Source: Candidatus Geothermocultor quzhuomuensis (GTDB lineage Bacteria > Actinomycetota > Aquicultoria > Geothermocultorales > Geothermocultoraceae). From it: DNA of 64,000 bases. The translations under genes and the position numbers were made by a program. The notes beneath the pieces are model-generated. The model was given only the letters and a program-made list of their open reading frames with translations, was not told the DNA's origin and made no database searches. This document shows positions 1 to 59,207 of this stretch, piece by piece; position 1 is the stretch's first letter; every line of letters starts with the position of its first letter. The stretch is from positions 1-64,000 of the forward strand of contig JACVJC010000005.1 in assembly GCA_015711795.1 (NCBI GenBank), read 5' to 3'.

Positions 1-113
1 TAAAGGGTCAAGCAGTAAGTGAAAATATAAAGATAATAGAAGCAAGAATGGAAAAAGAAAGCAAATTAAAAAGAGAAGTAGAAAATATAAAGAGGATAAT
101 AAATAAAAATTGA
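1..113 (+). CDS. C-terminal fragment of a possible IS200/RAYT-like transposase with a C-terminal HTH (partial, runs off left edge)
   Basis: Frame 3 reads KGQAVSENIKIIEARMEKESKLKREVENIKRIINKN*, resembling the C-terminal helical tail of Y1/RAYT-type transposases; followed by GTTTGACCCT, the inverse of AGGGTCAAGC at 4-13. Confidence 0.4.
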   Translation, partial: KGQAVSENIKIIEARMEKESKLKREVENIKRIINKN

Positions 114-381
114 AGGTTTGACCCTATCTATTGTTTCAATTCACCTCCTAAAATTAATAATCTTATCGCCCCTCTATTCCTTCGCAAATCAACCAAATCA
201 ACCTCCTCTCCCCTGAAGCTTCCAGGGAAAAGGTATCGTCAACAACTATGAATTGGCCGAGGTCGCACCTCGACCAGTCTTAATCCACCTCCCAACCTTG
301 TAATTTTTCGTAAAATTTCTTGTATTTCTTCCTCCAGCTCACCACCCCTGACGTAAGCGCCTAAAATTGGCGAGCCAAAGA

Positions 382-492
382 GTTTCAATCCTTGTTTTAT
401 GGTACTCTATTTTCAACTACAGAGCTAGAACATATTTTCATAACACCTTGTCCAAAGTTTCAATCCCTTAGAGGGGTTTTTCTTCTTATCTA
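382..492 (-). CRISPR. Degenerate two-repeat CRISPR remnant: 36-nt repeat at 457-492, 39-nt spacer, degraded repeat at 382-417
   Basis: GTTTCAATCCCTTAGAGGGGTTTTTCTTCTTATCTA (457-492) matches 3048-3083 at 34/36; the minus strand ends ...GGGATTGAAAC, the classic 8-nt crRNA handle. GTTTCAATCCTTG... recurs 75 nt upstream (36+39). Confidence 0.55.
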
Positions 493-660
493 CAATAATT
501 CTCAACAAGGTGCTTTTTCCGGAGCCAGAAGGCTCAACAATGGTGACAAACCGTTTTCAAAAAGGTCGAAGTCAAAGTCTTTTATTACCTGAAACCCTTT
601 TCCGTCTTCAATGAAAGATTTGCCTATGTGGATTACTTTGATAATGGCTTCTTTTTTCAT
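493..660 (-). pseudogene. NitT/TauT-type ABC transporter ATP-binding protein, N-terminal fragment, frameshifted and truncated
   Basis: Minus strand reads MKKEAIIKVIHIGKSFIEDGKGFQVIKDFDFDLFENG / frameshift / FVTIVEPSGSGKSTLLRII then runs into the CRISPR-like repeat; ATGA overlap with the upstream permease stop. Confidence 0.75.
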
Positions 661-2378
661 TCAATCTCCAGAGAAAATCTTTTAGCGGCAAAGCGATAAA
701 GTTTTTGCCATACAAGTCGATTAAGCACAATTATAATTAAAACTAAGACTGTGAGGGTAATAGCTATTTTTAATGGGTCACCATATTGGTAATTAGCTTT
801 ATCAAGTAAAGCACCTATGCCAAAAACCGAATAAGTCTGACCTTTGAAAACACCATATTCAGCCACCACTAGAGCATTCCACGAACCTCCCCAAGCAGCC
901 AGCGACCCAGTAACCAGGGCCGGGAAAGAACCGGGGATTAAAACTTTTTTTGCCAGGAAAGTGCGGGACTTTGTCAGAGCCATAATGCTTTCTTTTATTT
1001 CCTCTGGTATGTTTCGCATCAACCCAAGCACCGGGAAGAATATGTACCAGAAAGAAGTAGAAAAGATTACTAAAAAAGCGGTTAATTCTAAACCGAAAGG
1101 TATTTTGTTTTTTAACACCAAAGCTAAAAGAAGTGGGTATAAGGCGGTGCCTGGCAGCGAAGCCATCATTTGTAAAAAAGGAGTGAATTTTCGATAGGCT
1201 TTTTCATTGCTTACGAGATAAGTGGCTAAAAGAAGAGCGATGACCACACATATGATATAAATAAGTAAGATTCGAAAAAAAGAGGCAAAAGTGGCTAGTA
1301 TGGATAGAGCAAAGAAGAGCCAAGGGAAAGGTTTAGAAATTAAGTCAAGAAAAAAAGAGCGGTTAGTAAAAAGGAAAAGCAACAAAAGAAAAGCAAGAAG
1401 AGTAAAAAAAATAGAATTCGCTAATTCAAAAAGGCTTTTCCCTGATTTTGGTACTTTGGAAATTAGCTCTAAAGAAGATTTTTCCATGTTGAACAAAACT
1501 TTTTTTATAAGCTTGAAAACTTTGTTCAAATGAAAAAAAAGCAAAAGGTCTTTTATTTTAGAAAAGACAGTTGAATATTGAGTGGTTTCTCCTTCCGCGA
1601 CCATTTGATAAGAAAACTTTTTGGACCAGTCCGAAAGTGGCTCAAAGAGAAGTTTGTGCAGTATATAAATAATTAAAAATAAAACAGTTAAGGTGATAAG
1701 AGTTAGATGAAGGTCTCCTTTTTCTGAAGAAAGCCAGAGGAGATAACCAATTCCGGGTAGTTTAAACTCCTTAGCTCCTATGGCAAAGATTTCCGAAGAC
1801 ATTAGAAAAAACCAGGAGTTTGCCCAGGAGACCATTGAGTTGTAAGTTAAACTAGGGATACAGGCAGGAAAATATAATTTTTTGAAAGCGAGCCACCCCT
1901 TTAGCCCTAAGGAATTCGACAGGCGGCTTAAATCTTTAGGAATGGTAATTAGCGATTCATAAACTCCAAAAGCCATATTCCAAGCTTGAGAAGTAAAAAT
2001 TAGAAAGATAGCAGCTAGTTCAGTTCCTATGCGCTCTCCTTGAAAAAGTGAGACAAAAAGAGCTATTGCTACCGGGAAAAAGCCGACCACCGGGACTGAC
2101 TGCAGGACATCAAGTGTTGGCAGAAGCACTTTTTCGAATTTTTTATTGAAAGCGGCTGCAAAGCCCATTGAGACAGCAAAAATAAAAGATAGAACGTAAG
2201 CAGCCGCTATTCGACCAACTGAGAACAGGGAGTAACTCAAAAGCTTGTTCAGCGGCGACGGTAGCTGTAAAGTTATGAGATAAGAAATTAAGGGAATTGC
2301 AAAAACAATTAAAAGTAAAACAAGGTTTTTTAAGATATCTATTAAGTTGAATTTGATTTCCTGAGTTTGGGTCTTCAT
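657..2378 (-). CDS. ABC transporter permease with two fused permease domains (NitT/TauT-like)
   Basis: 573 aa with two BPD_transp_1-like halves (EAxxxxxG-like loops in both). Confidence 0.8.
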   Translation of the reverse strand: MKTQTQEIKFNLIDILKNLVLLLIVFAIPLISYLITLQLPSPLNKLLSYSLFSVGRIAAAYVLSFIFAVSMGFAAAFNKKFEKVLLPTLDVLQSVPVVGFFPVAIALFVSLFQGERIGTELAAIFLIFTSQAWNMAFGVYESLITIPKDLSRLSNSLGLKGWLAFKKLYFPACIPSLTYNSMVSWANSWFFLMSSEIFAIGAKEFKLPGIGYLLWLSSEKGDLHLTLITLTVLFLIIYILHKLLFEPLSDWSKKFSYQMVAEGETTQYSTVFSKIKDLLLFFHLNKVFKLIKKVLFNMEKSSLELISKVPKSGKSLFELANSIFFTLLAFLLLLFLFTNRSFFLDLISKPFPWLFFALSILATFASFFRILLIYIICVVIALLLATYLVSNEKAYRKFTPFLQMMASLPGTALYPLLLALVLKNKIPFGLELTAFLVIFSTSFWYIFFPVLGLMRNIPEEIKESIMALTKSRTFLAKKVLIPGSFPALVTGSLAAWGGSWNALVVAEYGVFKGQTYSVFGIGALLDKANYQYGDPLKIAITLTVLVLIIIVLNRLVWQKLYRFAAKRFSLEIE

Positions 2379-2380
2379 AC

Positions 2381-3021
2381 TTGGTTAATTTTAACTCTAA
2401 CCCTTATAATGTTGAAGAAAGAAAATTTAGAGAGAGGAGACCTTTCTTTAGTTTATTTATTACTTTTGAAAGGAGGATAAAAAATCTCCTTAATTTTCTG
2501 GTTTTTTGTTGCTTGGCTTTATTTGTTCTTGCTTTTCTTGCTTTAATACCTTTACTTTTTTACCTCTTTAGTTTAGCTAACGTTATTGCCATACCAACTC
2601 AGTTTGTAAGGCATTTTAAAAATAAAAAAGCCTGGCAAAATCACACTTTGGAGCACGCAACTATTAATATTTTGGAACAGGAATACGGGTACATTTGTTT
2701 GACTGGTCTTTCTTTTGAAGATGGTTTTTTTTATTTTTGGGATTGACAAGCAGACTTGATTTTAAAAGCGGCGCAAGACGGGCACGAACGTTTGCAAAAG
2801 GGCAAAAGAAAGTTGGCCTTGTATCGACAGTGTGGGGCTTCCACCGGAATTTTTTTGTTTGTATTTTCTCCTATTTTCTGGTTTTTTCCTCCTTTACTAG
2901 ATTGATTACCTAGTTTCCTTCTTTTTTTTTCTTGACATTAATTTTTAACCCCGCTCTTGATTTATTGGCTCAGCAGTTTTTAACTACTTCTTCTGATATG
3001 AGCGGTCTGGTGATTGCTTGA
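2381..3021 (+). pseudogene. DUF6391-like membrane protein, interrupted by in-frame TGA codons (2744-2746, 2903-2905) and a frameshift near a T9 run (2922-2930)
   Basis: HTLEHATINILEQEYGY...GFFYFWD(TGA)QADLILKAAQDGHERLQKGKRKLALYRQCGAS, continuing in another frame as LIFNPALDLLAQQFLTTSSDMSGLVIA. Confidence 0.55.
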
Positions 3022-3030
3022 TAGAACAGG

Positions 3031-3447
3031 TTATTCCAGCTGAAAAAGTTTCAATCCCTTACAGGGGTTTTTCTTCTTTTCTATTTTTGTGAAAATTGAA
3101 AGAAGCCTTGTCTCTTTTGTTTTTAAGCTCCCTTCTTCTTTATCAGATTCGAGCTCTATCCTCTCACCCGAAGACAACCAATCCGATAACTGCACAATTC
3201 TTTCATCAGGCTCAGTGGGCTCGTGATGATTTCGAATTATTCTTTGGATACTGTCAATTTGATCATATATAGCTTTAAATTTCCCTTTGTTCTTTTCCAA
3301 GAAAGCAGCTCCAACTCCAGCATGAGAGTAGGTAGTTCTAAACCAATTGCCAAGGTGAGTAATGTCATAATTAGCCCGCTGGAGTGGTTTTCCTATGTCA
3401 TGGAGTAAAGCTCCTAAATATACCTGCAATCGTTCTTTTGTCATCAC
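3031..3447 (-). pseudogene. cas10: Cas10/Csm1 N-terminal HD-domain fragment (truncated)
   Basis: YLGALLHDIGKPLQRA...SHAGVGAAFLEKN...IIRNHHEPTEPDERIVQLSDWLSSGERIE is a Cas10 HD signature; the reading frame then enters the CRISPR-like repeat (KKKNPCKGLKLFQLE) and no palm/GGDD domain follows. Confidence 0.75.
3048..3083 (-). CRISPR. Solitary 36-nt CRISPR-like repeat
   Basis: GTTTCAATCCCTTACAGGGGTTTTTCTTCTTTTCTA, 34/36 identical to 457-492; minus strand ends ATTGAAAC. Confidence 0.55.
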
Positions 3448-4198
3448 AGCCTCCGGGTCATACCCATCCCGTGGGTAGTTTTGCGCCCAGTGCCAGCGAA
3501 AAAGGCATAATCCGCTAAGAGATTTATCTGACGTTTTGCTTCTTTCTCGACACTATTCTTTATGATAAAAGTGACTTTTCCCACAAAGCCAGGAATGGTT
3601 ATTCTGCCATCATTAAAAGGAATTGTTTTTATGTCCATTTTTGAAATTCCTACTTCTCTTTCTATTATATCGAGTAGATTTAACATTAACCCATCAATTT
3701 CTGAAAATTTTTTCCACTTTTTATAATAACTTTGAAAAACGAGTCGAGGCAAAGGCAGTGGCAAGTCTAAGTCACTCTGCCGAAAAGCAGTGGGAGTGTG
3801 AAATTCTAAAGTAATTTCCTCAGTTGAACTTGCGTTTTTAAAAAGGTCTTTATGAGTAGAATAACCCCCCACTTGTTTTGTTTTACCCATATTTCTTTGA
3901 CTAAGAAATTGTTCTCTTTTAGAGAGAGCATGGGACAAGGATTTTCTATAAAATAAACGAAGAAAAGAGGAGAAATTTCATCGTCTAAGAGAGTTACTCT
4001 AAACCAGTGGTCTTTGCGGTATTTAAAAATAGGTGAGATTGTAAAAGCTTTTTGCCCAATGCTCTGGTGAATTTTTTTGCTTACCTCTGGGTTAACGGTC
4101 TCAAACAAATAAAGAATGGAGGCATGGAGATTTTTTGGGTTTACTTTCTGGTCATCCTCTAAACTTCCTTTGATAACACAGGCTAGAGGCATTACCAC
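3444..4198 (-). pseudogene. cas6: Cas6 endoribonuclease, frameshifted near 3935-3955
   Basis: N-terminal half on 4198..~3950 and C-terminal half on ~3938..3444 in different frames; C-terminal FAGTGRKTTHGMGMTRRL is the Cas6 glycine-rich motif. Confidence 0.7.
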
Positions 4199-58887: not shown

Positions 58888-58942
58888 ATTAACTGGTCTC
58901 ATTTATCATCCTGACCACCTCACTCCTCGAAGGCACTAGGTT

Positions 58943-59149
58943 TCTTTCAGGCAGGTCTCCTGGCTTCCCTGTTGTCCTAATTCGCCTTCCCACCTTAACA
59001 TTCAAGGCAGTGACTTTAGAGCCTATGGCTCTTATTGGGACTTTTACATTCTCAATCGAGAATGTCAGGGTTACAGTGGCGGGTCCGCGCCGGACTCCTC
59101 CCGCTCAAGAGCAAGGAGCCACCGGTCTTCCCTTTATAAACCTGAAAGA
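58943..59149 (-). promoter_or_regulatory. Cobalamin (AdoCbl) riboswitch
   Basis: P1 TCTTTCAGG/CCTGAAAGA; GCCACTGTAACCCTGACATTC core; AGCCAGGAGACCTGCCTG B12 box; upstream of B12 transport and salvage genes. Confidence 0.93.
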
Positions 59150-59207
59150 TTTAAAAATTAAGCAAATTTTAACAAAAATTAAAATTTAATTCAAACAACG
59201 ATACTAT

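Follow-up and report, generated by a model that had tools for sequence, protein, structure and literature searches.

Probable relict CRISPR repeats at gene breakpoints in a likely scar of a type III-A CRISPR-Cas locus of Candidatus Geothermocultor quzhuomuensis

Results

The window, i.e. the whole stretch of DNA that was analysed, comprises the first 64,000 nucleotides of contig JACVJC010000005.1 (here C5) of Candidatus Geothermocultor quzhuomuensis, and its start is base 1, thus one end, of the contig. The features found close to this end are listed in Table 1. Read along the minus strand, a frameshifted cas6 is followed by the 5' part of csm1/cas10, a repeat copy (R2), a 2.5-kb piece with a DUF6391 pseudogene, a permease gene and the stub of an ATPase gene, a second copy of the same repeat (R1), a 39-nt gap, a different repeat (R') and the remnant of a further gene. 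Both copies of the shared repeat, R, adjoin broken genes. A sequence-only reading of this DNA had reported that the fragments of an ABC ATPase gene and of cas10 end in the same 36-nt stretch, and the coordinates, the identity of 34 out of 36 positions and the gene names were all confirmed; R' and the gene remnant beside it had escaped that reading.

Table 1 Features at the start of contig C5 (window coordinates)
Feature	Position	Strand	Basis or remark
C-terminal remnant of a frameshifted gene without family match	131..381	-	Adjoins 3' end of R'
R', second, different CRISPR-like repeat, GTTGAAAATAGAGTACCATAAAACAAGGATTGAAAC	382..417	-	Shares GGATTGAAAC end with R
Spacer-like gap between R1 and R', 39 nt	418..456	-	By length
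R1, very probable relict CRISPR repeat	457..493	-	36 nt common to R2; 37-nt unit inferred from the G006 repeat
ABC transporter ATPase, 5' stub, frameshifted	494..660	-	tblastx and nucleotide comparison with intact paralog on C3
ABC transporter permease, intact ORF, 573 aa (BPD_transp_1)	657..2378	-	About 55 % identical to C3 paralog over best stretch
DUF6391 pseudogene, stops and at least one frame change	2381..3047	+	Pfam PF19928, E=1e-25 on read-through
R2, second very probable relict CRISPR repeat	3048..3084	-	Differs from R1 at 2 of 36 positions and at first base of 37-nt unit
csm1/cas10 5' fragment (HD domain), cut at or near R2	3085..3447	-	TIGR02578, E=5.7e-18, positions 2-102 of 753; PADLOC Cas10; class Csm1 alignment
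cas6 pseudogene, frameshift giving two overlapping ORFs	3444..4198	-	Pfam PF19308 and PF10040 on the two pieces; PADLOC Cas6

Exactly two matches to R are present in the window, compared to none expected from shuffled sequences. The 36 nt common to both lie on the minus strand at 457-492 and 3048-3083, and when the two stretches are compared within the window the identity runs over 39 nt (454-492 and 3045-3083). The copies are 2591 nt apart, and regular spacing with unique spacers was not seen. No further copies were found in the 1.76-Mb genome of 38 contigs when up to 3 mismatches were allowed. Comparison with the array repeat of a relative from the same class (genome G006, see below) suggests that R is a 37-nt unit, GTAGATAAGAAGAAAAACCCCTCTAAGGGATTGAAAC, which in R1 would extend over 493-457 of the minus strand. 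The first base of this unit is A in R2, and the differences between R2 and R1 include bases 1 and 6 of the unit.

The 2.5-kb piece between the two copies has a GC content of 36.6 %, compared to 35.4 % for the rest of the window, and its contents, an ABC transporter and DUF6391, look chromosomal, with no recognised phage or plasmid gene. Contig C3 carries an intact pair of paralogs of the ATPase and permease genes and contig C6 an intact paralog of DUF6391, which indicate the former shape of the broken genes. The ATPase stub stops just past the Walker A motif, at the edge of R1: it can be aligned with the C3 paralog up to ...GKSTLLRII (window position 494), after which the C3 protein reads AGIDASTSG. 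The intact C3 gene does not contain the repeat. The permease gene has remained intact between R1 and R2, although both of its neighbours are decayed. The DUF6391 homology is clear only to about position 3015 and the remainder up to R2 is ambiguous, so a spacer-length remnant between DUF6391 and R2 is possible.

The csm1/cas10 fragment encodes approximately 120 N-terminal residues, i.e. about the first sixth of the gene, and a search of the assembly did not reveal the remainder of cas10. There is no second cas10/csm1 in the genome, where TIGR02578 otherwise gave a single weak match, to the HD part. For cas1, the family PF01867 matched 9 of 14 control genomes but nothing in this genome. With no cas1 and no second csm1 beyond the weak HD match, the locus is dead for adaptation and, on the genes tested (cas10, cas6 and cas1), dead for interference as well. 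As cas6 and cas10 are broken, we do not propose a present function for the repeats.

R' occurs as a single copy in the genome (at most 3 mismatches) and is separated by 39 nt from R1, from which it differs in sequence. The 39-nt gap was also searched for a target that it might have had as a spacer, but none of its matches to phages was convincing, and IMG/VR contained no exact match to its core. The translation of the remnant at 131-381 begins FGSPILGAYVRGGELEEEIQEILRKITRLGGG... and had no Pfam, NCBIfam, PADLOC, phage or plasmid match and nothing significant in PHROGs; among 36 genomes of the class it matched only itself. It was rejected both as a Cas protein and as the missing half of the ATPase, with no family match and, by eye, no likeness to the C-terminus of the C3 ATPase. 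A lone degenerate R'-like element, with 26 of 31 aligned bases identical and a local score of 21, was seen near gatA on another contig (G000:C9:7607-7643, L053 1608-1644), and may be a further relict CRISPR repeat. At the very start of the window (1-118) the contig opens within the lysine- and glutamate-rich tail of an ORF, with GGGTCAA near the start and TTTGACCC right after the ORF; possibly this is the end of a mobile element where the assembly broke. Elsewhere in the window a cobalamin riboswitch is encoded on the minus strand at 58933-59160 (Rfam RF00174, 72 bits).

With a length of 36-37 nt and the 3' end GGGATTGAAAC, R has a typical CRISPR repeat length and a GAAA(C/G) end, in which many CRISPR repeats terminate (PMC1896005). 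Five intact csm1 genes were found in the class, and the one of G006 shares its contig with an array of three repeats. The repeat of this array, GTAGAAAGAGATGTAATACCGGAAACGGGATTGAGAC, and R1 have 22 of 37 positions and both ends in common. An equally good match to it was given by only 3 of 127,926 37-mers of the window, and when R1 or R2 was shuffled, no shuffle out of 5000 could be aligned to it equally well. The ends GTNGA...GGATTGA(A/G)AC are common to R, R' and the G006 repeat, apart from the first base in R2, and the folds of R1 and R2 contain a short hairpin close to the hairpin position in the G006 repeat. Based on the GGGATTGAAAC end, the cas6 and csm1 remnants alongside and the likeness to the G006 repeat, R is very probably a CRISPR repeat.

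No array with R was found in the genome itself, the class, 397 genomes of the phylum, GTDB or IMG/VR, collections from which records of near relatives may be left out. A full array elsewhere was further sought by a scan for spaced TTTCAA, which gave numbers near those of the backward control (74 compared to 72 forward, 70 compared to 62 reverse), and there was no array among the places listed. R and R' also matched plasmids, but these matches were short and due to chance. According to the sequence-only reading, absence of the repeat from any CRISPR array of the genome or its relatives would count against breakpoints at CRISPR repeats. R is indeed absent in the literal sense, a result softened by the related repeat in the G006 array; the assignment, which we still regard as very probable, is one of form, neighbours and the 22 of 37 match to the repeat of a relative.

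The conserved LRIIAG allows the ATPase break to be placed at most about 1 nt from the leader-side (5') edge of the inferred 37-nt repeat: position 493 is the first base of the unit by the G006 comparison, and thus the ATPase homology stops at the base adjoining the repeat. If breaks fell evenly over a 75-nt period of repeat plus spacer, the chance of a break within 1 nt of this edge would by our own estimate be about 4 %. We also considered that the ATPase might read on through R1, where GIETLDKVL in another frame is loosely like GIDASTSGKIL of C3; the likeness ends there and was taken as chance. The cas10 break can be placed only to a few codons, the conserved Csm1 sequence stopping around SIFTKI. 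It is less certain because the Csm1 proteins of the class are weakly conserved after SVF/SIF, because inclusion of the residues encoded by the repeat increases the cas10 profile scores by 1.8-3.6 bits, and because the differences of R2 from R1 at bases 1 and 6 of the 37-nt unit could be cas10 sequence. No ATPase or cas10 sequence was recognised beyond the far side of R1 or R2.

Discussion

The region is probably the scar of a dead type III-A CRISPR-Cas locus in which the repeats were left behind by deletions and recombination. The remaining cas genes, the leader and most of the array would have been lost through events ending at or in repeats, with lone repeats staying behind at the junctions. 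Since similar repeats recombine, an exchange between them may have placed the 2.5-kb piece between two direct copies. Recombination between CRISPR repeats has been described, as has the possibility that an array collapses until only one repeat is left (PMC8047081), and chromosomal targeting by type III-A systems drives large deletions (PMC5687920). A link of CRISPR repeats to chromosomal rearrangement is also cited in PMC1896005. With repeat recombination and array collapse to lone repeats already described, the breaks flanked by R are mostly ordinary, the one mildly unusual feature being the position of the ATPase break right at the edge of R1. Homologous recombination alone, however, does not explain a break at the edge of a repeat, as it needs a repeat already beside the gene.

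The proposal that genes broke at CRISPR-type repeats is supported by the CRISPR-like form of R, by the dead III-A setting and by the C3 paralog, which is without the repeat. Recombination or deletion between arrays, one of the two routes put forward earlier, fits in outline, but no array with R is known from any of the collections searched. The other route, insertion of repeats into genes, finds no backing, as neither gene was recognised to continue past its repeat. Nor do the missing gene halves lie beside other repeats: the genome holds no other copies of R, and the rest of cas10 is absent from the assembly.

Two direct copies around the 2.5-kb piece are also the product expected if a circular DNA with one R recombined into a remnant array to give R-segment-R; such a circle could, for example, be a piece excised between two repeats at an earlier time, or a mobile element that carries a solitary repeat unit. 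Viral genomes have been proposed to enter CRISPR arrays via solitary repeat units (PMC8616872). We consider such an origin unlikely here, as the piece, in which no phage or plasmid gene was recognised, contains chromosomal transporter genes and has a GC content close to that of the rest of the window, and as R would need to have been joined to the ATPase stub in the circle beforehand.

The draft state of the assembly and the contig end leave some room for a chimera. The genome is a draft of 38 contigs with a contamination of 2.41 %, and the locus is at the very start of contig C5, where reads from separate CRISPR contexts might have been joined at a shared repeat. Against this, the two copies of R differ, and all flanks are distinct and similar in GC content. 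Assembly word sizes are usually longer than 36 nt, so that a 36-nt repeat falls below them, and an artefact appears improbable.

The position of the ATPase break allows a more specific mechanism to be formulated. The bond at the leader-side edge of the repeat is the target of Cas1-Cas2 attack, and this is the edge that the ATPase break approaches to about 1 nt. The order of repeat, long DNA and repeat, in a leader-proximal position, is moreover the layout of a spacer insertion. In place of a short prespacer, Cas1-Cas2 could have taken the 3' end at a chromosome break and ligated it at the leader-repeat junction, the 2.5-kb piece being an oversized spacer accompanied by repeat duplication. Known prespacers are, however, tens of bases long, and cas1 is absent today. 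The cas10 break and the border between R2 and DUF6391 lack single-base placement, which leaves one resolved break, the edge match of which could be chance. We therefore hold this mechanism to be very unlikely, and give just as little credence to the wider notion that the adaptation machinery made both the gene truncations and the oversized spacer, with the damage helping to kill the locus.

That the shared stretch is no CRISPR repeat, being instead native cas10 coding sequence copied beside the ATPase stub, would agree with the gain in profile score and with the alignment of TIGR02578 to position 147 across three stops in the genome scan, but it is hardly credible, as the gain is small and lysine-rich, intact Csm1 proteins of the class have no such sequence at this place, R', at a distance of 39 nt, has the same GGATTGAAAC end and the array repeat of a relative is similar to the unit as a whole.

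Parallels to the decayed locus have been described. As in lone repeats after array collapse or decay (PMC8047081), one or two repeats remain by broken cas genes with neither array nor cas1; here, in contrast, a 2.5-kb chromosomal piece is bracketed and a gene is broken at the repeat edge. In Thermotogales, CRISPR sequences were likewise tied to rearrangement (DeBoy et al. 2006, as cited in PMC1896005), reportedly in the form of large inversions between genomes, whereas here there are small deletion or insertion scars in one dead locus. The solitary repeat units of viruses (PMC8616872) are also single CRISPR repeats outside arrays and were proposed to serve integration by recombination, but at the present locus no viral gene was recognised and the repeats lie beside cas remnants.

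Very probably the repeats are relics of CRISPR that mark the scars of rearrangements, while the specific mechanism by which the scars arose is offered as a proposal. The locus provides a readable case of CRISPR-Cas decay that leaves repeats at scars, and taken alone it is one more CRISPR graveyard. If exact joints at repeat edges recur in other dead loci, breakage of the chromosome by the adaptation enzymes would become testable.
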